This document shows, one piece after another, positions 1,843-25,458 of a stretch of 34,147 bases of DNA. The translations under genes were made by a program, and so were the position numbers. Under the pieces are notes generated by a model, which had not been told where the DNA came from, searched no databases, and saw only the letters and a program-made list of their open reading frames with translations. How positions within the stretch are numbered: position 1 is the stretch's first letter; each line of letters begins with the position of its first letter. The stretch is from an uncultured Desulfovibrionaceae bacterium (GTDB taxonomy: Bacteria > Desulfobacterota > Desulfovibrionia > Desulfovibrionales > Desulfovibrionaceae), in the NCBI GenBank assembly GCA_944324045.1, contig CALUUT010000080.1, positions 1 to 34,147 on the forward strand, given 5' to 3'.

Positions 1843-1871
1843 TTGACAGTGCCTGCTTTACGCGGTAATGC
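1832..1871 (+). promoter_or_regulatory. Promoter candidate for the ORP-like cluster (sigma54-like overlapping a sigma70 -35)
   Basis: TGGC at 1832-1835 and TTGA at 1843-1846 have the exact 11-base offset of the sigma54 TGGC/TTGC elements, but the nearly invariant -12 GC is GA here. The same bases form TTGACA (1843-1848), a perfect sigma70 -35, with a weak TAATGC at 17-bp spacing (1866-1871). The D. vulgaris orp operons are sigma54-dependent, which is why the first reading is worth recording. The sequence alone does not decide between them. Confidence 0.35.
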
Positions 1872-1898
1872 TCATTTGAGCAAAATCAAGGAGAGGGT

Positions 1899-2582
1899 AT
1901 GCCTAGACTACGCTTATGCCGGTGTGTGGAGCGCACGCCGAAAGTGGCCTGTTTCAAACCGCGCGGCGTTCCCATGCATGAGCTTGAGCAGGCCGTCTTG
2001 AGCGTGGAGGGTCTGGAGGCCATTCGGCTTGCGGATGTAGAAGGTCTGACGATGGAAAAGGCGGCGCAGCGGATGCGCGTGTCCCGGCATACGTTTGGCA
2101 GAATTCTCAACGAAGGGCGCAGAATTGTGGCGGACGCCCTGATACACGGCCGGGCGCTTTGCATAGAAGGCGGAACATACAAAGTGACGGCGGCCGCCGG
2201 CGATGCGGCGGCATTCAAGGAGAGAGACATGAAGCGAATTGCGGTTTCAAGCGAAGGACCGGGGCTTGACTCCATGGTCGACCCCAGATTCGGCCGCGCG
2301 GGCGGCTTTGTTCTTGTGGACAGCGAAACAATGGCTGTGGAATACCTTGACAACGGCGATTCGCAGGTTATGCCCCAAGGGGCGGGAATCAGCAGCGCGG
2401 AGAAATTGGCGAATGCGGGCGTTGAGGTGATTTTGTCCGGGTATATCGGCCCCAAAGCCTTTGAGGCGCTGACCGCGGCCGGAATCAAGATATGTCAGGA
2501 CATGGACGGCATGACCGTGGGCGAGGCCGTGGAGCGTTTCAAAAGCGGGGCGGCGCCGTTTTCTCTTGCCCCGAACAAGTAG
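1899..2582 (+). CDS. UPF0251 (DUF134) HTH domain fused to a NifX/NifB-type cofactor-binding domain
   Basis: A 227-residue two-domain protein. Residues 1-95 match the UPF0251/DUF134 pattern: an N-terminal Cys cluster (CRCVERTPKVACFKP), then a helix-turn-helix (MEKAAQRMRVSRHTFGRIL), which suggests DNA binding. After a linker, residues 110-215 are a dinitrogenase iron-molybdenum cofactor-type domain (DPRFGRAGGF, GAGISSAEKLANAGVEVILSG). A strong AAGGAGAGG site precedes the ATG. The gene leads a run with two MinD-like Fe-S ATPases, so it probably senses or carries a metal-sulfur cluster and may regulate the cluster; that is inference. The two domains also occur separately in other bacteria. The next gene starts within a few bases of its stop, so transcription is shared. 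Confidence 0.88.
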   Translation: MPRLRLCRCVERTPKVACFKPRGVPMHELEQAVLSVEGLEAIRLADVEGLTMEKAAQRMRVSRHTFGRILNEGRRIVADALIHGRALCIEGGTYKVTAAAGDAAAFKERDMKRIAVSSEGPGLDSMVDPRFGRAGGFVLVDSETMAVEYLDNGDSQVMPQGAGISSAEKLANAGVEVILSGYIGPKAFEALTAAGIKICQDMDGMTVGEAVERFKSGAAPFSLAPNK

Positions 2583-2588
2583 GTGTTT

Positions 2589-3455
2589 ATGCGTATCGCC
2601 ATTGCAAGCGGAAAAGGCGGGACGGGCAAGACGACGGTCGCCGCGTCGCTGGCTTCTGTATGGGACGGCCCGGCGATTGTCGCGGATATGGATGTGGAAG
2701 CGCCGAATCTGCATCTGTTTGTGCATCCGGCGCTTTCGGAAGAGCAAACGGTCTTTCTTGAAGTGCCGCGCCTTGAGGAGAGCCTGTGCATCGCCTGCGG
2801 CCGGTGCCGGGATATTTGCCGTTTTAAGGCCATTGCGCTGTTTGGAAAGCGCCTTGCCCTGTTTCCCGACATGTGCCACGGCTGCGGCGGCTGCTTCGCC
2901 GTATGCGCGCAAAAAGCCCTTGCGCCGGCGCAGCGCGAATTGGGAATGCTGCAAAGCGGCATGGCGTTGGGGCAGCGTTTCATAATGGGGCGTTCAAGAA
3001 TCGGCGAGGCCATGACCCCGCCGTTGCTGAGGGCCGTGCTCAACCGGATTGAGGGCATGCTGGAGGACGCGCCGGCCGACGTTTTGCTGGATTCTCCGCC
3101 GGGCGTAAGCTGTCCGGCCATGACGGTCGCCCGCGAAGCGGACGTGGTCCTTTTGGTGGCCGAGCCCACGCCGTTTGGTTTCCATGATTTCCGGCTTGCG
3201 CATCAGGCTGTCCGGGAGCTGGGCAAACCCGTGGCCGTGGCCGTCAACAGGGCCGGTCCGGGCACGGCGGAGCTGGCGGAATATTGCGGCAGACATGGGC
3301 TTCCGATTCTGATGGAGCTTCCCTTTGAGCCCTGCGCCGCCAGAACCTATGCGCGCGGAGAATTAATCGCGGAAGCGTCGCCCGCATGGCGCGAGCGTTT
3401 TGTAACCCTGGCTTCCCGTTTGCGCGATTTTTCAAGGAAGGCGAAGGATGCGTGA
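2589..3455 (+). CDS. MinD-like ATPase with inserted 2x[4Fe-4S] ferredoxin domain (ORP-cluster type, first copy)
   Basis: A 288-residue P-loop ATPase of the MinD/Mrp class. The deviant Walker A motif is SGKGGTGKTT at residues 7-16, DMDVEAPN follows the first strand, and Walker B-like DSPPGVSCP lies in the second half. Between them sit two ferredoxin Cys clusters, CIACGRCRDIC and CHGCGGCFAVC, each with C-x2-C-x2-C-x3-C spacing, so two 4Fe-4S clusters are expected. Proteins of this build belong to the orange-protein complex of Desulfovibrio, with a proposed role in cluster assembly or delivery. I chose ATG 2589 (MRIAIASGKGG), the canonical beginning, over an in-frame GTG at 2583 that lacks a ribosome site. 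Its 3' end overlaps the next start by 8 bases, so the paralogues are translationally coupled. Confidence 0.9.
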   Translation: MRIAIASGKGGTGKTTVAASLASVWDGPAIVADMDVEAPNLHLFVHPALSEEQTVFLEVPRLEESLCIACGRCRDICRFKAIALFGKRLALFPDMCHGCGGCFAVCAQKALAPAQRELGMLQSGMALGQRFIMGRSRIGEAMTPPLLRAVLNRIEGMLEDAPADVLLDSPPGVSCPAMTVAREADVVLLVAEPTPFGFHDFRLAHQAVRELGKPVAVAVNRAGPGTAELAEYCGRHGLPILMELPFEPCAARTYARGELIAEASPAWRERFVTLASRLRDFSRKAKDA

Positions 3456-4341
3456 GATTGTGATCATAAGCGGAAAAGGCGGGACCGGAAAAACCACGGT
3501 GTGCGCGTCCTTCAGCTATCTTGCGCGCAAGGCGACGCTTTGCGATCTGGATGTGGATGCGCCGGATTTGCATATTCTTCTGGACCCGCGGCCGCGCGTC
3601 ACAGAGGCGTTTATTTCCGGAAATACCGCGGTTGTCGATGCCGCCTCGTGCGTCGGATGCGGCGCGTGCGCGGCCCTGTGCCGTTTTGGCGCGGCAAGTC
3701 TGTCCGGCGGAAAAGGAAGCGTGGACGCTTTGCGCTGCGAAGGGTGCGGGGTCTGCGTGGACCTGTGCCCAGCCAAAGCGATAGCGTTTCCGGAAAAACA
3801 TTGCGGCGACTGGCATATAAGCGATACGCGCATGGGGCTCATGGTCCATGCCCAGCTTTTTCCGGGACAGGAAAATTCCGGCAGGCTGGTGACCCTGCTT
3901 AAGCGCAAGGCGCGCGAGCTTGCCCGGGAACATGGTTTGGATATGATTCTTTGCGACGGCTCTCCGGGCGTGGGCTGTCCTGTGATCAGCTCCTTAAGCG
4001 GCGCGGATCTGGCTGTGGCCGTTGTGGAGCCGACGCCGTCCGGGCGGCATGATTTTCAGAGAGTGGCCGCGCTGTGCGATCATTTTCGCATCCCTGTAGC
4101 CGTGTTGATCAACAAGGCGGACCTTAACGAACAGGAAACCGCGCGTATCGAGAAGGAATGCCTGGAGCGACGCTATGCTCTTCTGGGGCGGCTTCCCTTT
4201 GATCAGGCTGTTACGGCGGCCATGGTGCAGCGCAAGGCGCTGACGGAACTGCCGGGCGAATTGGGCGGGATGCTGCGGCGCGCCTGGGACATGATTCTGG
4301 CCTTGCCGGACGCCCGTCTGAAGGGGCGGCTTTTGGGGTAG
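3448..4341 (+). CDS. MinD-like ATPase with inserted 2x[4Fe-4S] ferredoxin domain (second copy)
   Basis: A 297-residue paralogue of the preceding protein with the same order of parts: Walker A SGKGGTGKTT (residues 8-17), DLDVDAPDLH, ferredoxin clusters CVGCGACAALC and CEGCGVCVDLC, then CDGSPGVGCP and a switch-like segment VVEPTPSGRHDF. All eight cluster cysteines and the signature lysines are intact in both copies, so neither looks decayed. The start ATG overlaps the upstream gene and has GAAGG just before it. A tandem pair of such ATPases is the hallmark of the D. vulgaris orp operon (DVU2103-DVU2104 as I recall), where they act with the NifX-like orange protein. A heterodimer is a reasonable guess. 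A terminator follows at 4371-4396. Confidence 0.9.
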   Translation: MREIVIISGKGGTGKTTVCASFSYLARKATLCDLDVDAPDLHILLDPRPRVTEAFISGNTAVVDAASCVGCGACAALCRFGAASLSGGKGSVDALRCEGCGVCVDLCPAKAIAFPEKHCGDWHISDTRMGLMVHAQLFPGQENSGRLVTLLKRKARELAREHGLDMILCDGSPGVGCPVISSLSGADLAVAVVEPTPSGRHDFQRVAALCDHFRIPVAVLINKADLNEQETARIEKECLERRYALLGRLPFDQAVTAAMVQRKALTELPGELGGMLRRAWDMILALPDARLKGRLLG

Positions 4342-4370
4342 GATTGGTTCAGGACTCGTTTTTGCGGAAA

Positions 4371-4396
4371 GGACGCCGGCGGGCGTCCGCGTTTTT
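4371..4396 (+). terminator. Terminator between the ATPase pair and the NifX-like gene
   Basis: GGACGCC and GGCGTCC form a 7-bp stem with a 4-base loop, followed by GCG and five T residues. The T run overlaps a 14-bp palindrome (4393-4406, TTTTCAGCTGAAAA), which could be an operator or a competing fold. The downstream NifX-like gene therefore probably has its own promoter; a TATACT at 4459-4464 is the best -10, without a convincing -35. Confidence 0.65.
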
Positions 4397-4503
4397 CAGC
4401 TGAAAATGCGTTTTAGCGCGGCGTTCCCTGTGCGAACCCTTTCCCGCAACGGCAAAAATATACTAACATCTGACAAGCAACTATGAATTCAGGAGGAAAT
4501 ATC

Positions 4504-4881
4504 ATGAGCGCTTTTCTTCTTGCAGTGCCTTCGGAAGCGCCCGGCGGTCTTGAAGCGCAGACGGCGCAGCATTTTGGTCATTGCGAATTGTATACCCTGG
4601 TGGAAATTGACGGCAACGCCATAAAACATGTCGAAACGTTGCCCAATCTGCCTCACCAGCAGGGCGGCTGCATGGCCCCGGTGCAGTATCTTGCGGACCA
4701 CGGGGTGAAAAAAATGCTTGCCGGCGGCATGGGCATGCGGCCCCTTATGGGATTCAAGCAGGTCGGCATAGATGTTTTTTATGTCGGGAAGGGCGTTTCA
4801 GTCGGCGCGGCCGTGCAGGATTTTCTGGCGGGCAAGCTTCAGCCTTTCTCCACAGAATATACCTGCGGCGGCCATCATTAA
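4504..4881 (+). CDS. NifX/NifB-type metal-cofactor-binding protein, orange-protein (ORP)-like
   Basis: A single-domain protein of 125 residues from the dinitrogenase iron-molybdenum cofactor superfamily (MTH1175-like), the family of the Desulfovibrio orange protein that carries a non-covalent Mo-Cu-sulfide cluster. Family features are AQHFGHCELYTLVEI near residues 20-35, GGCMAPVQYLADHGVKKMLAGGMGMRPL in the middle, and a Cys/His-rich tail ending CGGHH. ATG 4504 is preceded by a near-perfect AGGAGG; an upstream in-frame ATG at 4483 lacks such a site, so the shorter form is preferred. Position next to two Fe-S MinD-like ATPases supports the ORP assignment. Which metal it binds cannot be seen; the HH tail and Cys residues are candidate ligands only. 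Confidence 0.85.
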   Translation: MSAFLLAVPSEAPGGLEAQTAQHFGHCELYTLVEIDGNAIKHVETLPNLPHQQGGCMAPVQYLADHGVKKMLAGGMGMRPLMGFKQVGIDVFYVGKGVSVGAAVQDFLAGKLQPFSTEYTCGGHH

Positions 4882-4897
4882 AATACGGGGTTAGCCG

Positions 4898-4936
4898 GCG
4901 GAAGGAAGACGGCGTTTTTGCAGGGGTTCCTTCCGC
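4898..4936 (+). other. 10-bp inverted repeat between the NifX-like and receiver-like genes
   Basis: GCGGAAGGAA (4898-4907) is the exact reverse complement of TTCCTTCCGC (4927-4936), with 19 bases between. No T run follows, so it is not a simple terminator. It may be a processing hairpin or an operator that sets the level of the downstream gene. Confidence 0.5.
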
Positions 4937-4965
4937 GGCCTTTGCATCATCGCGCGGGGGCTGGC

Positions 4966-5337
4966 ATGAACGTGTTGTTGTTGACTGACAAACCGGAAGA
5001 CTGGGCGGAAAACATACGGCTTTTGAAAGAAAAAGGCCTGCAGACCACGCTTGCGCGCTCAACGCCCGAAGCCGCGAGCATTCTGCAAAGCAATCCGCCT
5101 TCGCTGATGCTTATTGACGCATCGCCGCTTGCGGCGCATGAAGTTCGCGCTCTGGTCGGCGATCTGCTCATGGCGAACGCCATGGTCAATATGGCGGTGG
5201 CAAGCTCCATTCCTGAGCCGGAGTTCCACGATGCGACGGAAGGGCTTGGGATTTTGATGCAGATATCTAGAGAAAGGCTGCCTGTGCAGATTGACGCGCT
5301 GCTTGCCGCGTTGCGCGCGCTCATTCCGTCCGGATAG
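4966..5337 (+). CDS. Receiver-like small protein of the ORP-like cluster
   Basis: A protein of 123 residues with the alternating pattern of a response-regulator receiver: MNVLLLTDKPEDW at the start with D8 in the acidic-pocket position, and LMLIDASP with D51 at the phospho-acceptor position. The conserved lysine after strand 5 is absent (LGILMQIS), so normal phosphorelay switching is doubtful. No output domain is present. ATG 4966 was chosen because the residues upstream do not fit the fold. The gene is collinear with the NifX-like gene, 84 bases downstream, and ends before a strong terminator. A small protein of unknown role also accompanies the D. vulgaris orp genes; whether this is its orthologue needs alignment. 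Confidence 0.7.
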   Translation: MNVLLLTDKPEDWAENIRLLKEKGLQTTLARSTPEAASILQSNPPSLMLIDASPLAAHEVRALVGDLLMANAMVNMAVASSIPEPEFHDATEGLGILMQISRERLPVQIDALLAALRALIPSG

Positions 5338-5407: not shown

Positions 5408-5434
5408 AAAACCGCCCTGAAAAAGGGCGGTTTT
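5408..5434. terminator. Strong bidirectional terminator closing the ORP-like cluster
   Basis: AAAACCGCCCT pairs with AGGGCGGTTTT around a short GAAAA loop, with A and T runs on the two flanks. It can stop transcripts from both the receiver-like gene (plus) and the small Cys protein (minus). Confidence 0.9.
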
Positions 5435-5538: not shown

Positions 5539-5745
5539 TTATGCGCGTTCTTTGAAACGGATGCAGCCGAAATGCCTGTTCGTTTCAACGGCAAGCGCGC
5601 CGCAGCCTGACGGCGTCTGAAATTTCGTCAGACCGTCGGCATTGCCTTCCGCATTCGCGCTGTTCAGCTTGGAACATACCGCCAGCATCCCGTTGGCCTT
5701 TCCCCAAAATGCGCAGTCGCCGCATTGTCCAAATTCCACTTTCAT
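5539..5745 (-). CDS. Small cysteine-containing protein, possibly metal-binding
   Basis: A 68-residue protein with five cysteines: CGDC at residues 8-11, then C24, C48 and C61. The CxxC followed by spaced single Cys residues resembles a small zinc- or Fe-S-binding fold, but no named family is recognised. It is a real gene: AAGGAG sits 7 bases before the ATG. The frame is full of charged residues, without membrane or signal segments, so it is likely cytoplasmic. It diverges from the STAS-like/flavodoxin pair, and the intergenic region holds a Fur-box candidate, so iron-dependent expression is possible. A GCGCATGC hairpin (about 5495-5522) lies downstream, without a T run. Confidence 0.75.
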   Translation of the reverse strand: MKVEFGQCGDCAFWGKANGMLAVCSKLNSANAEGNADGLTKFQTPSGCGALAVETNRHFGCIRFKERA

Positions 5746-7501: not shown

Positions 7502-7963
7502 TTACAGGCTTTTTCTATACATAAAAACATGAATGGCATTGAAGAACAAAAAGCCCCAGCCAAAAGCGACATGTCCGCGGGTCCGGCCTGTCAGGCCAAG
7601 GCCGACGCACAGTCCCAGCGTGGCGATCATGCCCATATTGGTGATTTTCCGCACGCGGGCGCGCGGCAGGAGACTTCGGCTTTTTCTGGACCGGGGCTTC
7701 GGTTTTTCAGGCTCCTCTTCTTCATCGTCGCCCACAAGGCCTTTCAATTGTCCGGCAAGCTGAAGCAAATCCATGCGGCTTAATACTTTTGAATCATATT
7801 CCAGAAGCAGCGAGGCGGTCACGGTGTTGATATTGACAGTTTTCACCCCAGCCGTTTTTTGTAAAAACGCCTGAACTTTCGCGCTGGTGTTTGGATTATG
7901 CAGGGCGCTGTGCCGGATGCGGATGCGGCCGTCAATAAAACTTGTAATGTATTTCGTGAACAT
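7502..7963 (-). CDS. Cys-less HMA-like protein with C-terminal membrane segments
   Basis: A 153-residue protein. Residues 1-75 resemble a heavy-metal-associated fold (GRIRIRHSALHNP, then VKTVNINTVTASLLLEYDS) but without the metal-binding CxxC. A charged linker (DDEEEEPEKPKPRSRKSR) leads to two hydrophobic segments at about 113-130 and 134-148. The GRIRIR motif is also present in the N-terminal domain of the neighbouring ATPase, so the two domains are paralogous. ATG 7963 was chosen for its GGGAGGAA site; the frame extends 11 codons upstream without one. It is the last gene of the minus-strand metal module, 52 bases after the ATPase. It may dock or regulate the pump; metal chaperoning by cysteines is excluded by the sequence. 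Confidence 0.82.
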   Translation of the reverse strand: MFTKYITSFIDGRIRIRHSALHNPNTSAKVQAFLQKTAGVKTVNINTVTASLLLEYDSKVLSRMDLLQLAGQLKGLVGDDEEEEPEKPKPRSRKSRSLLPRARVRKITNMGMIATLGLCVGLGLTGRTRGHVAFGWGFLFFNAIHVFMYRKSL

Positions 7964-8015
7964 GATGTTCCTCCCCACTGGTAAAGAGTGTTGCATGGAT
8001 TTGAATAAAAAACGG

Positions 8016-10088
8016 TTATGCCTGTTCCGTATACGGCAGCATCGGCCGCATGGCGTTTATTGAAACCCCGACTGTCGTCAGGTTGTGCAGCATCGCCGAT
8101 GCGCCGGGTTGGAGCATCCCGCTGAGGCCGCCGGCCAGAAAACAGGTGTTGAGCGCCATGATGATGCCGAAATTGCTGTGAATGCGCCGTATGGTGAGCC
8201 GGCCAAGTTCCATCGCCGTCAACAGGCGCTGAAGGTCGCAGTCCATAAGCACGACGTCGGCCACCTCGCGGGCCAGATCCGCGCCGTCGCGCAGGGTGAC
8301 GCCCACTTCTGACGCGGAAAGTGCGGGGGAATCGTTTATCCCGTCTCCGACCATAAGAACCGTTCGTCCTTCGGCCTGGAGTTCGCGAATAATGGCGGCC
8401 TTGTCTTCAGGAAGCACCTGGGCGCGAAATTCCGTAATGCCCAGTTTGGCGGCGACCGCGGCGGCGGTGCGCTCGTCGTCGCCGGTGAGCATGAGAATGC
8501 GGCGGATGCCTCTTTTGCGCAGATTTTGAATGACCGCGACGCTTTCATCCCGTATGGGGTCTTCGATGCCGATAAGACCGGCCAGACGTTTTTCAATGGA
8601 CAGATACAGGACGGAATGCCCCATATCGGTCAGACGGGTTATCTCTTTATCCATGCAATCCACGGGGATGCCTTCGTCATGGTGGATATAGTGCCGGCTG
8701 CCGATGCACACCTTTTTCCCGTGCAACTGCGAAGCCACGCCATGGGCCACGATATATTCGACTTCGGCGTGTTCCTCGCGGTGGTGCAGCGATTCCTCTT
8801 CCGCCTTGCGCACCACGGCCCGGGCCACGGGATGCGGGAAATGCTCCTCAAGGCATGCCGCGAGTTTCAGCACTTCCGTGCGCGAGAAGCCTTCGGCCGG
8901 GATGACGTCCACGACGCGCGGGCGGGATTCGGTCAGAGTGCCTGTTTTATCAAAAACAACCGTATCAACCGTGTTCAATGCCTCAAGAAAACGGCCGCCC
9001 TTGACGACCACGCCGTGTTTGACCCCTTCTTTCATGGCGGTCAGAATGGCCAGAGGCGTCGCCAGTTTAAGCGCGCAGGAGTAATCGACCAGCAGGACGC
9101 CAGTCGCGCGCACAGGGTCGCGGGTGATAAGCCATACCAGTCCGGCCAGCAGAAAACTGAAGGGCACCACGGCGTCGGCAAGCCGTTCGGCCTTGCCCTG
9201 CACCCCGGCCTTGAGCGACTCCGACTCCTCAATAAAACGGATAATGCTCTGGATTCTTGTGCCGTCGCCAACGCCGGTGGGCCGGATGGCGATTTCTCCT
9301 TCTTCGACGACGGTTCCGGCAAAGACGGACGCCCCAGGCTCCCTGAGCACGCCCAGCGCTTCGCCTGTCATGGACGCCTGATTGACCGATGCTTCGCCGG
9401 AAACAACCTCTCCGTCGACAGGAATCGCCGAGCCCGCGCGCACGATGACAAGGTCGCCCTCTTCCAGGTTGTCGATGGGAATCTGGAATTCCGTTTCGCC
9501 GCGGCGCACCCATACGGCATCGACATTCAGGGCAAGGCTTTGCGCAAGGCTGTCCAGAGATTTTTTGCGCGTCCACATTTGCAGGGCCTCTCCGAATCCA
9601 AGCAGAAGCGTCAGCAGGCTTACTGTCTTGTAGTCGCGCATGGCCAGGGAAACGCCGATTGCCGTGGCGTCAAGGACATCCACATTGACTTTTCCGTGTA
9701 GAAGGGCTGAAAGTCCTTTTTTCAGGAAGGGGATTCCCGCAAGAAACGCCGAAAAAATTCTCAGCGGAAACGGCAGCAGCGGCCGCACGAACAAATAACG
9801 GAACAGAGGGAACAGGCTGGGCCTGTCGTTGTTTTCCGGGATGTTGTCCGCCTGTTCGGCGGCGCAGTCCTCCACGCCGGACGCAAGCAGGCGGCAGGCC
9901 GCGTTTCGCGCTTCAACAGACGCATACAGCAAAAGCACGCTTTTTGTCCGCGGATTGATGCGTACGCCTTCAATGCCCGCAATGGCGTCAAGTCGGTCGG
10001 CCAGGTTCTGCGCAAAACCGTAATTGAATTCAGTGGGGGTCCGCAGGCGGATGCGGCCTGGAAGTTCGTGAACAATAAAAAAATCCAT
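8016..10088 (-). CDS. Heavy-metal P1B-type ATPase with SCA motif in place of CPC
   Basis: A 690-residue P-type ATPase expected to export a transition metal across the inner membrane. In order: Cys-less HMA-like domain (about 1-75, with GRIRLR), membrane helices, actuator domain with TGEA, transmembrane ion-binding segment DYSCALKLATP (S337-C338-A339), phosphorylation site DKTGTLT (D380), HP signature (FPHPVA), nucleotide domain, MVGDGINDSPAL hinge, and final helices. The usual CPC/SPC/TPC triplet is absent, so this belongs to a divergent P1B subgroup and the metal cannot be named; the retained Cys and Ser could still be ligands. AAAGGTGA lies before the ATG. It is followed closely by the HMA-like gene, and the small membrane protein gene lies 487 bp upstream. 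Confidence 0.92.
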   Translation of the reverse strand: MDFFIVHELPGRIRLRTPTEFNYGFAQNLADRLDAIAGIEGVRINPRTKSVLLLYASVEARNAACRLLASGVEDCAAEQADNIPENNDRPSLFPLFRYLFVRPLLPFPLRIFSAFLAGIPFLKKGLSALLHGKVNVDVLDATAIGVSLAMRDYKTVSLLTLLLGFGEALQMWTRKKSLDSLAQSLALNVDAVWVRRGETEFQIPIDNLEEGDLVIVRAGSAIPVDGEVVSGEASVNQASMTGEALGVLREPGASVFAGTVVEEGEIAIRPTGVGDGTRIQSIIRFIEESESLKAGVQGKAERLADAVVPFSFLLAGLVWLITRDPVRATGVLLVDYSCALKLATPLAILTAMKEGVKHGVVVKGGRFLEALNTVDTVVFDKTGTLTESRPRVVDVIPAEGFSRTEVLKLAACLEEHFPHPVARAVVRKAEEESLHHREEHAEVEYIVAHGVASQLHGKKVCIGSRHYIHHDEGIPVDCMDKEITRLTDMGHSVLYLSIEKRLAGLIGIEDPIRDESVAVIQNLRKRGIRRILMLTGDDERTAAAVAAKLGITEFRAQVLPEDKAAIIRELQAEGRTVLMVGDGINDSPALSASEVGVTLRDGADLAREVADVVLMDCDLQRLLTAMELGRLTIRRIHSNFGIIMALNTCFLAGGLSGMLQPGASAMLHNLTTVGVSINAMRPMLPYTEQA

Positions 10089-22779: not shown

Positions 22780-25458
22780 ATGTCATTTTTGAGCACCTTG
22801 CTTTCCCAGATCATGCCCAAAGGAGAACAGCGCCGCACAGCATCGGGGTTTGCCGTGTGGCTTTACTGGGACGGGGATCTAAACCCGGTGATTCCGCGAA
22901 CGCTGCAGGAATACGGCGGCCTGCAGGTCGCGCAGGAAGCGGACCAGACGTTATGGTTTTTTTTCACGACGGATGTTTTGCTGGCGCTTGCCCGGCTTCA
23001 GGCATGGGTGAAGTTTCGCGCCGCGCCGCTGACCATCGCGGTCATGCCCGCGCAGATGGGCATGACCGACGCGCGCGTCAAATCCGTCGAAGTCGCCCCG
23101 GAACTTGGGTCTTTGGGGCTGGATACGCCAAGCGAATTCTGCATTTGGGTGCATCCCAAGGCGCGTGAACAGGGGCAGGGCATACCGGGCCTTACGTTTC
23201 GGGTTTCGCAGTCCGTTCCCACGCTGTTTGGGCCGGACTGGACCCTTTTGGAGGCGGACCCCCGGCTGCCGTACCAGACGTCGTTTGGCTGGTATTGCGT
23301 GCTCAAGCCCCTGGGCAATCCTCTTGAAAAGGGATTTCAGGCCGGGTGGCGCATTTTTTTCAGCGACATTGAAGAGATCATGCGCCGCCACAAGCTCAAG
23401 TATCTTCTGAACGATAATTTCCTGTGTTTTCCTCTGGAAAGCATAAAAAAACTGTGGAGCTGGTGCCGCGATTTTCTGCAATTGGCCGCGTCGCGCAAAG
23501 AAGACGCATCCGAGCGGTATTGGCCGTGCGTCGTGGCGATTGTGGACAAGCGGGGGCTTAATTTCAGCAGCGATCTTCCCCGAAAGCTGGGGCTTGACTG
23601 GGACCAGCTTATATCCGATTTCCCGTACATGTCCTATCGTTCCGCGCTCATGCTGGGCGATGACGCATTCACCATTCATGAGGCGCGTTTTGATGTGGCG
23701 AAGCGGTCCATGGATGACTGGTGCACGGTATCCCTGCGCGGCGACAAGGGCGCCGGCCTTGGCGCCATTCCCGTGCGCGTGGCGCAGTGTCTGACCTTGG
23801 GCAAGCAGAACGTCTGTTTTTACTGCGGCATGCGCAATCATGAGCCGAATCAGTGTCCGAGCAGACGGTTCAAGGACTGGGCCCCTGACGCCTGGCGCGC
23901 GGTCGGCACGATGGATTTTGAGACCATAAATAAAAACATGGACAAAATCGACGCCAAAGGCATCCCGGAGGGCGTCGAGGGTCTGAAAGAAGTCCTGGAG
24001 CAGCAGGACGGCGCGGGCAATCTGCTGCGCGCGGTATTCGACATAAACAACGTCTCCCAGTTGTCTATGCTGCACAGGGTCTGGCGCGCAAGGGGCAAAG
24101 AGTGTCCGAAGAGTTTTTACGAGCTGGGGCTCAAGGACGACGGCAAGGTCTGGAACGCGCTTGACGAATTTCCCGACGGCGATTCCAGCCCCATGGAAAA
24201 AGGGCTTGCGACGCTGGCTCTCAAACACCCGCGGGACGCCCGGGTGCGGGCGTTGCAGGGGTTCGCGGCCATGGAGCGGGGCGATCTCGTAAAAGCCGGC
24301 GCGTTGTGGAAAGAAGCGGAATCCTTGAGCGTGAGCCCGCCCCAGCATGCCTATCACATTTTTTTGCAGGCGCGCGCTTTGGAAGTGCAGGGACGGTATG
24401 AACAGGCCCGGCAAACATATGACCTTGTGTTGCATTATGGGATAAACTGGGTTGAGCCGCGGTACCGGCGGCTTGTCTGTCTGGTCAAGATGGGCTTTGC
24501 GGAAAAAGTGGCGTCCCAGCTTGTGCAGTTGTCTGAAGACGAGCCGAATATCATCAACCGGGCCTTGATTGACCCGGAGATGGAGCGCGGCCGCATTCAT
24601 TTGCTGACCGCCCTGTATGGTCCATGGCTTGCGGCTCAGGCAAGGGCCCAGGAAGAACTGGAGGGGCTGAAGAAAATTCGTTCGGAATCAGCCGTGTGGT
24701 TTACGGAAAAACATCCGTTTGCGGTGTATGCGCGCAGTCGGGTGGATGCGCTGCTCGGCATGGCGGATTGCAAAAACTACACGCCGTTTATGCTTATAGC
24801 GCAAAGCAGGGCGTCCTTGAGCCGGGAAATGCAAAAGCAGATTAACAATGAAGGCAGGGAACTGCGCAATAAATTCATTATGTATCGCGAGCGCCTGCAG
24901 AATATCCAGGATGAGGCGAGCTGGTTTCCGTTTCCCAGACTGCTTGTCGAATTCAACAAGAACTTCAATATCTGCGCCCAGAGTCTGAACATCGGTTTGA
25001 AATCGCAGTTTCAGATCAGCGAGACGTTTAAAAAGGCGCAACAGGTTGCGGAAAGTCTGGAAAAGCGCTTGACCAAGCTTGAATCGCAGATGCGCTTTTT
25101 AAAAATAGTGCGCGATATCACCCTGTTCGTTTTGATCATGGGCCGGACGTTCTTCTGGTTAGAGCTTTTGTTCATGCTGCTCTTGCTGATAGGCGTGCCC
25201 CTGGTCATATATTACGGCGACCGCATGGGGCTTGAAATGATCAGCTCCCTTGTCTTCCGGCAAAAGTGGCAGATTCAAAAGGGTCTGGCCGTGGTGCTCA
25301 GCGTCGTCGCCCTCATAATCGCCTGTTTCCGCACGGTGCTGGTCTTTGAAGGAAAAAAGGAAAAATTATTGAGCAAAAATAAGGAGACCGCGGAGGAAGC
25401 TGTGGTGAATGCGGAAAAAGGCGGCAATGCGGGAATGAGCGGAAGAAGAAAAACGTGA
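22780..25458 (+). CDS. Large membrane-anchored protein with zinc knuckle and TPR-like region
   Basis: An 892-residue protein without a recognised overall family. Residues 20-330 form an unknown globular part containing two similar blocks (FWxxD-type segments around tryptophans). A CCHC zinc knuckle, C346-x2-C349-x4-H354-x4-C359 (CFYCGMRNHEPNQC), follows. Residues about 450-620 look like tetratricopeptide helices (HPRDARVRALQGFAAMERGDLVKAGALWKEAE). A coiled coil (about 745-775, KAQQVAESLEKRLTKLE) precedes two membrane segments at about 781-812 and 845-865, and a charged tail. No signal peptide is visible, so most of it is probably cytoplasmic. ATG 22780 is preceded by GAGG at a rather long distance. 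It is likely monocistronic and specific to this lineage. Confidence 0.8.
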   Translation: MSFLSTLLSQIMPKGEQRRTASGFAVWLYWDGDLNPVIPRTLQEYGGLQVAQEADQTLWFFFTTDVLLALARLQAWVKFRAAPLTIAVMPAQMGMTDARVKSVEVAPELGSLGLDTPSEFCIWVHPKAREQGQGIPGLTFRVSQSVPTLFGPDWTLLEADPRLPYQTSFGWYCVLKPLGNPLEKGFQAGWRIFFSDIEEIMRRHKLKYLLNDNFLCFPLESIKKLWSWCRDFLQLAASRKEDASERYWPCVVAIVDKRGLNFSSDLPRKLGLDWDQLISDFPYMSYRSALMLGDDAFTIHEARFDVAKRSMDDWCTVSLRGDKGAGLGAIPVRVAQCLTLGKQNVCFYCGMRNHEPNQCPSRRFKDWAPDAWRAVGTMDFETINKNMDKIDAKGIPEGVEGLKEVLEQQDGAGNLLRAVFDINNVSQLSMLHRVWRARGKECPKSFYELGLKDDGKVWNALDEFPDGDSSPMEKGLATLALKHPRDARVRALQGFAAMERGDLVKAGALWKEAESLSVSPPQHAYHIFLQARALEVQGRYEQARQTYDLVLHYGINWVEPRYRRLVCLVKMGFAEKVASQLVQLSEDEPNIINRALIDPEMERGRIHLLTALYGPWLAAQARAQEELEGLKKIRSESAVWFTEKHPFAVYARSRVDALLGMADCKNYTPFMLIAQSRASLSREMQKQINNEGRELRNKFIMYRERLQNIQDEASWFPFPRLLVEFNKNFNICAQSLNIGLKSQFQISETFKKAQQVAESLEKRLTKLESQMRFLKIVRDITLFVLIMGRTFFWLELLFMLLLLIGVPLVIYYGDRMGLEMISSLVFRQKWQIQKGLAVVLSVVALIIACFRTVLVFEGKKEKLLSKNKETAEEAVVNAEKGGNAGMSGRRKT

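Follow-up and report, generated by a model that had tools for sequence, protein, structure and literature searches.

A Desulfovibrio gigas-type orp operon whose first gene probably encodes both a DUF134-ORP regulator and a free orange protein

We analyzed a 34,147-nucleotide stretch of DNA (contig CALUUT010000080.1; hereafter, the window) from an uncultured Desulfovibrionaceae bacterium, which carries an orange protein (ORP) operon of five genes at positions 1899-5337. All five lie on the forward strand and encode, in order, a fusion of a DUF134 domain to an ORP domain, two ATPases, a DiNase protein, and a receiver-fold protein. This is probably an orp operon of the D. gigas type (type II), in which the first gene would yield both a DUF134-ORP regulator and free ORP, giving a cluster pathway that sets its own level. 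We know of no function for the orange protein, which has been known for decades together with its Mo-Cu sulfide cluster, bound without covalent ligands. Judged from sequence, what appears to be new is the operator, the internal start, and the presence of D. gigas ORP as the C-terminal part of a DUF134 fusion open reading frame (ORF). Family counts below refer to 288 Desulfovibrionaceae genomes; the genome that contains the window comprises 2.55 Mb and is 100% complete. The features of the operon are as follows.

1843-1848, forward strand: -35 box, an exact TTGACA in the sequence.
1866-1871, forward strand: possible -10 hexamer TAATGC, 17 nucleotides past TTGACA and overlapping the operator.
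1869-1882, no strand: predicted DUF134 operator, palindrome TGCTCATTTGAGCA, from its single site in the genome and its conservation at leaders of DUF134 operons.
1888-1893, forward strand: Shine-Dalgarno (SD) sequence AAGGAG of the full-length fusion, from the sequence.
1899-2582, forward strand: DUF134 (UPF0251)-ORP fusion gene, 227 amino acids, predicted autoregulator, from Pfam, a PDB match, and a structural model.
2217-2222, forward strand: internal SD sequence AAGGAG at the domain boundary, from the sequence and kept in relatives.
2229-2582, forward strand: nested frame for a putative free orange protein, 117 amino acids, with 62% end-to-end identity to the L050 sequence, which equals D. 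gigas ORP.
2589-3455, forward strand: Orp3/4-type ATPase (MinD/Mrp family) with two [4Fe-4S] motifs, first of the pair, from Pfam and the tree.
3448-4341, forward strand: Orp3/4-type ATPase with two [4Fe-4S] motifs, second of the pair, from Pfam and the tree; it overlaps the first by 8 bp.
4504-4881, forward strand: stand-alone DiNase protein with HFGHCE and a C-terminal CGGHH, from Pfam and the motif description in PMC6345978.
4966-5337, forward strand: receiver-fold (CheY-like) protein kept in these operons, from a model, PDB matches, and an alignment.
5412-5430, forward strand: likely operon terminator, a GC-rich hairpin followed by TTTTGT, read from the sequence and absent from the output of the consensus terminator scan.

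A preliminary description of this DNA had proposed an orp-type locus of collinear genes headed by a helix-turn-helix (HTH)-ORP fusion. Forward-strand ORFs and Pfam bear out the genes and their domains, and the Orp3/4-type ATPases and an ORP domain matching PDB 2WFB bear out the kind of locus. Gene 1 matches DUF134 (PF02001, E 4e-22; 79 bits versus a curated cut-off of 27) and Nitro_FeMo-Co (PF02579, E 8e-20), genes 2 and 3 are CbiA/ParA ATPases with two 4Fe-4S motifs apiece, gene 4 is again Nitro_FeMo-Co, and gene 5 has no Pfam match. Likely starts are ATG 2589 for gene 2, ATG 4504 (with AGGAGG) for gene 4, and ATG 4966 for gene 5, with a second start inside the fusion at 2229. A simple sigma70 and terminator scan returned nothing useful at the operon ends.

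The ORP domain of the fusion is a close relative of D. gigas ORP. It matches 2WFB, the D. gigas orange protein, with E 2e-44, and the last 117 residues of the fusion align with that protein from end to end without a gap. Gene 4 was considered as the orange protein and rejected because gene 1 is far closer to 2WFB (E 7e-5 for gene 4); it resembles the C-terminal domain of MrpORP more than it does ORP. The link to the orange protein drawn in the preliminary description thus holds for the fused cofactor domain, although it had missed that this domain, and not gene 4, is the best match to D. gigas ORP. In the predicted model of the fusion, the HTH and ORP parts are confident and the linker is loose. 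The ORP part superposes on 2wfb with a template modeling score of 0.95 (by target length) and a root-mean-square deviation (rmsd) of 0.9, and the HTH part resembles SigR region 4 (48 columns, rmsd 0.7), with a weak Foldseek E of 0.06.

D. gigas ORP is known as a separate small protein, whereas the ORP domain of the window is fused to DUF134 and known here from its sequence. However, we found a 249-residue DUF134 fusion ORF (L050) whose final 117 residues are exactly the 2WFB sequence, and this ORF has the same operator and internal SD sequence as the window. The genome concerned is probably that of D. gigas, a name that we infer. For the 117-residue protein we calculate a mass of 11,805 Da, close to the roughly 11.8 kDa of native ORP, an agreement that serves as a lead only. 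The DUF134 fusion is not mentioned in the literature searched on D. gigas ORP, which covers the D. gigas literature incompletely, and the D. gigas genome paper makes no mention of ORP. Our literature search found no paper giving the DUF134/UPF0251 (PF02001) family a function, and none naming two of COG1342, COG1149, and COG1433 together.

A ribosome-binding site and start codon sit exactly where free ORP would begin. In the window, AAGGAG-N6-ATG occupies 2217-2231 at the ORP boundary and opens a frame of 117 residues, the length of D. gigas ORP. The family supplies 41 distinct type II junctions; a start codon is present at 38 and an SD sequence of at least five matching bases at 35, a match found at 18 of the 271 other internal ATGs in the same ORFs. 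We also scanned named genomes, which gave at least 210 related stretches; counts come from the best 80 loci, 79 of them with the fusion, and the family and named junction sets share some genomes. An internal start with an SD sequence is present in 67 of the 79 named fusions versus 18 of 402 other internal ATGs, and, outside Desulfovibrionaceae (by record title), in 27 of 36 versus 11 of 162. Linker residues are poorly conserved across the fusions. Where a fusion stands at the end of its operon and ORP has its own gene, a good SD sequence and ATG are missing at six of seven junctions. The strong SD sequence and start at the ORP boundary in most fusions suggest that one gene probably makes both the regulator and free ORP.

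The fusion gene is preceded by a palindrome, TGCTCANNTGAGCA, located between the -35 box and the start codon; the copy at 1869-1882 ends 16 bp before that start. Allowing one mismatch, this is the single place where it occurs in the 2.55-Mb genome, and a reversed control pattern has none. Near operon leaders we counted palindrome A (up to one mismatch) and palindrome B (TGAGCATATGCTCA, up to two mismatches). In 1.9 Mb of sequence from relatives, each of the 20 perfect A sites is at the leader of a DUF134 gene or of an operon that contains DUF134, and A or B is found near the leader in 68 of 89 fusion-led operons, with a chance expectation of at most 0.2% per stretch. TTGACA (up to one mismatch, 15-19 nucleotides from a presumed -10 hexamer) accompanies the A site in 42 of 46 relatives versus 2% of shuffles. 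The seven operons in which DUF134 comes last all carry the A site where the operon begins rather than beside the regulator gene; thus, the site follows the target promoter. The palindrome is present in none of 27 operons lacking DUF134 in the stretch (one of them, L174, begins at a contig end), nor is there one near the leader of L170, where DUF134 is divergent. Operons led by a stand-alone DUF134 have a site at that leader in 7 of 30 cases, and several have A just before the fusion instead.

The palindrome is confined to operons that contain DUF134, which is an argument for autoregulation by the fusion and supports the direct control put forward in the preliminary description. In the simplest interpretation, these half-sites are bound by DUF134, and, with a single palindrome in the genome, the fusion appears to control only its own operon. 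Such direct control is supported by the footprint; that the fusion senses metal and represses is what we infer beyond it.

Gene order is conserved across the Desulfobacterota, and the feature is not rare. DUF134 is present in 164 of the 288 family genomes and DiNase in 255. Using DiN_f and DiN_8 as labels of this analysis for the DiNase kinds found in the fusion and in gene 4, the order DUF134-DiN_f, ATP3, ATP4, DiN_8, gene 5 recurs in the 59 family loci chosen for mapping. An Orp3/4-type ATPase adjoins the fusion, on the same strand within the stretch, in 78 of the 79 named loci, so the fusion is not a protein found mostly away from such ATPases. Taxa with fusion loci include Desulfovibrio, Bilophila, Mailhella, Desulfomicrobium, Desulfarculus, Desulfocarbo, Desulfobacterales, and Desulfobulbaceae, among others. 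The preliminary description had treated the collinear run as unusual; because the same layout recurs in the mapped loci, it is instead the usual one for DUF134-led operons (59 family and 79 named fusion loci). Nearly all genomes with Orp3/4-type ATPases have a single pair of them.

The two domains of the fusion also meet in other arrangements. One genus group (L058, L059, L060, L067, L068, L074, and L075) has DUF134 fused to the other DiNase kind at the operon end. That the same operon joins these partner types in two distinct fusions is good evidence for DUF134 and DiNase working together. DUF134 and DiN_f are split neighbors, in that order, in L102, L105, and L285. Solo DUF134-DiN_8 fusions, with no ATPases nearby, occur at three further loci (L062, L063, and L066), where the A palindrome is perfect and an internal SD sequence and start are present. 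The window's own genome has two PF02579 DiNase domains only, both in the operon, and two DUF134 genes, the fusion and a stand-alone gene on another contig; many other genomes likewise have a second, stand-alone DUF134 gene. The stand-alone gene of this genome (L012; G000:C99:20135-20410) lies downstream of what looks by eye like a stomatin/SPFH-like gene, and no palindrome was found near it by the thresholds used.

We find that the operon belongs to a different lineage from the D. vulgaris orp system. D. vulgaris Hildenborough has two divergent orp operons encoding Orp3, Orp4, the [2Fe-2S] protein Orp5, Orp8, and Orp9/MrpORP, activated with sigma54 by the regulator DVU2106/OrpR (PMC3897727, PMC6345978). 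The operon of the window has in common with these its paired ATPases of the MinD/Mrp type (two [4Fe-4S] motifs each), an ORP domain, and an MrpORP-like DiNase. It differs in lacking MrpORP, an OrpR orthologue, and divergent operons, in having ATPases of a sister clade, and in having DUF134 fused to ORP and an extra receiver-fold protein. ATPase trees split the OrpR/MrpORP kind (type I) from the kind in the window (type II), with support of 0.91 and 0.97. The tree thus indicates that the locus belongs to a distinct type II, D. gigas-type orp lineage, of which it is the standard operon in Desulfobacterota. A rearranged D. vulgaris operon, which we also considered, was rejected because the ATPases fall in the sister clade, that of the D. 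gigas lineage.

As the preliminary description had said, the gene run contains no sigma54 activator. The rest of the genome has 13 strong AAA+ activators, none an OrpR orthologue: the best reaches 350 bits, over the AAA+ part only, versus more than 700 bits for OrpR orthologues. Searched for sigma54-like cores with one mismatch allowed, the window has fewer matches than expected by chance; one match, at 1760-1773, precedes the -35 box by about 80 bp. MrpORP (Mrp fused to DiNase) is not found in this genome, where the single strong match to Mrp (E 1e-101) does not figure among those that pass the MrpORP cut-off. Across the family, MrpORP is over the cut-off in 45 of 288 genomes and never together with DUF134, leaving out G164, a DUF134 genome that reaches the cut-off only when neighboring in-frame matches are added. 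The Fisher p for this exclusion is 1e-19, too small given relatedness; the pattern nevertheless persists within genera, with 30 genomes having DUF134 only, 6 MrpORP only, and none both or neither in the largest informative genus, and 6 and 4 in another. Because many DUF134 genomes have OrpR-like activators elsewhere, what is excluded is MrpORP rather than OrpR in general. Mrp proteins of 415-464 residues in L131, L132, and L133, from genomes that have DUF134, have a C-terminal part that profiles do not recognize as DiNase.

Collinearity is not special to DUF134-led operons. Collinear orp runs led by OrpR (L126-L129, L140; L134, L167-L169) have a DiNase and the ATPase pair in one direction, like the operon of the window; they differ in being led by OrpR (with the GAFTDA motif), with or without Mrp, and in having neither DUF134 nor the palindrome at the locus. 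One genus group among them (L134 and L167-L169) shares with the window type II ATPases, DiN_8, and the receiver-fold gene, and its ATPases fall outside type I, nearest to those of DUF134-led operons. Type II ATPases under OrpR in this group show that control modules have been exchanged.

Gene 5 has a confident model (predicted local distance difference test score, 95) with the (beta-alpha)5 receiver topology, and 197 PDB matches at E of 0.001 or less, the best being receiver domains. PF00072 is matched by 10 of 18 homologues, although not by the window copy. Their alignment has an invariant Asp51 at the end of strand 3, His88, and an EGxG motif, and no conserved acidic pair or Lys. Phosphorylation is doubtful because the acidic pair is absent.

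Taken together, we propose the following mechanism. The DUF134 part, a sigma-region-4-like HTH, would bind TGCTCANNTGAGCA as a dimer between the -35 box and the start codon, and the bound DUF134-ORP would repress its own operon. Use of the internal start would give free ORP, which with the two Fe-S ATPases would assemble or move a metal-sulfide cluster. The ORP part of the fusion would read the state of that cluster, and its occupancy would alter DNA binding; in this way, the cluster pathway would set its own level. Repression is suggested because the operator sits at the -10 region.

Several observations weigh against this proposal. No site was found by our thresholds in 21 of the 89 fusion-led operons; some of these sites lie beyond the scanned stretch owing to an over-extended ORF start, and some distant families may use another sequence. 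One genus group uses the different palindrome TGAGCATATGCTCA. The window's -10 hexamer is weak, and the choice between repression and activation rests on operator position. The Foldseek E of the SigR match is 0.06, phylogenetic dependence inflates the p-values, and gene fusion may have left the internal ribosome site behind as a relic.

That last point leads to the idea that the fusion is a regulator only, with the internal SD sequence and ATG left over from joined adjacent genes and the ORP domain serving solely as a sensor. Joining is plausible given the split neighbors described above, and six end-of-operon fusions lack an SD sequence and ATG at the junction. However, those are the junctions where ORP has its own gene. 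Elsewhere, the SD sequence and start are kept at the same boundary from Desulfovibrio to Desulfobacterales though the linker has diverged, with GGAG-ATG spacings of 5 to 11 nucleotides and all three phases occurring, one of them dominant. We consider a regulator-only fusion improbable. It is unlikely, though a serious alternative, that the fusion activates the operon by contacting RNA polymerase as a sigma-region-4-like factor. Its HTH does resemble sigma region 4 (SigR), and the other orp lineage is under an activator, DVU2106/OrpR (PMC3897727), but the palindrome is downstream of the -35 box and close to the start codon, where repressors typically bind, and a good TTGACA is present.

DUF134 might instead be a general regulator, with the palindrome a shared promoter element or the site of another factor. 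The second, stand-alone DUF134 gene of many genomes fits this idea, as do the B-like palindromes ahead of stand-alone DUF134 genes elsewhere in the phylum, in other families. Yet the whole genome holds a single A site, and sites go with DUF134 rather than with the ATPase operon itself, which makes a general regulator quite unlikely. It is very hard to credit that the locus is an ordinary D. vulgaris-type orp operon that has lost its regulator and whose fusion has no regulatory role. The ATPase family and DiNase domains are as in the D. vulgaris orp genes, but the ATPases fall in a separate, supported clade, MrpORP and OrpR are absent, and the palindrome is conserved; the genome-unique A site and the tracking of palindrome with DUF134 likewise disfavor it. 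The self-setting type II operon with a two-product first gene remains our preferred reading. A wider proposal has slightly less than even odds: that, in most of this lineage, the founding ORP is not an independent gene but the internally translated second product of an autoregulatory DUF134-ORP gene, and that DUF134 is a new class of cluster-reading, sigma-region-4-like factor tuned by free ORP through shared cluster or subunits.

Elsewhere in the window, a short cysteine-rich ORF of 68 residues (5539-5745, reverse strand), without a family match, faces the operon end. About 3 kb from the operon is a P-type metal ATPase (8016-10088, reverse strand) with a weak heavy-metal-associated domain match, adjoined by a small ORF (7502-7996, reverse strand) that looks heavy-metal-associated-like by eye. 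An 892-residue ORF at 22780-25458 has no Pfam match.

From the footprint come a defined target of 14 bp, a regulon of one operon, and an internal start, along with the prediction that the cluster pathway gauges its own product. Mutual exclusion of DUF134 and MrpORP, together with OrpR-led type II operons, also shows that anaerobes have swapped one control module of this pathway for another. If true, the two-product reading ties the orange protein to gene regulation.

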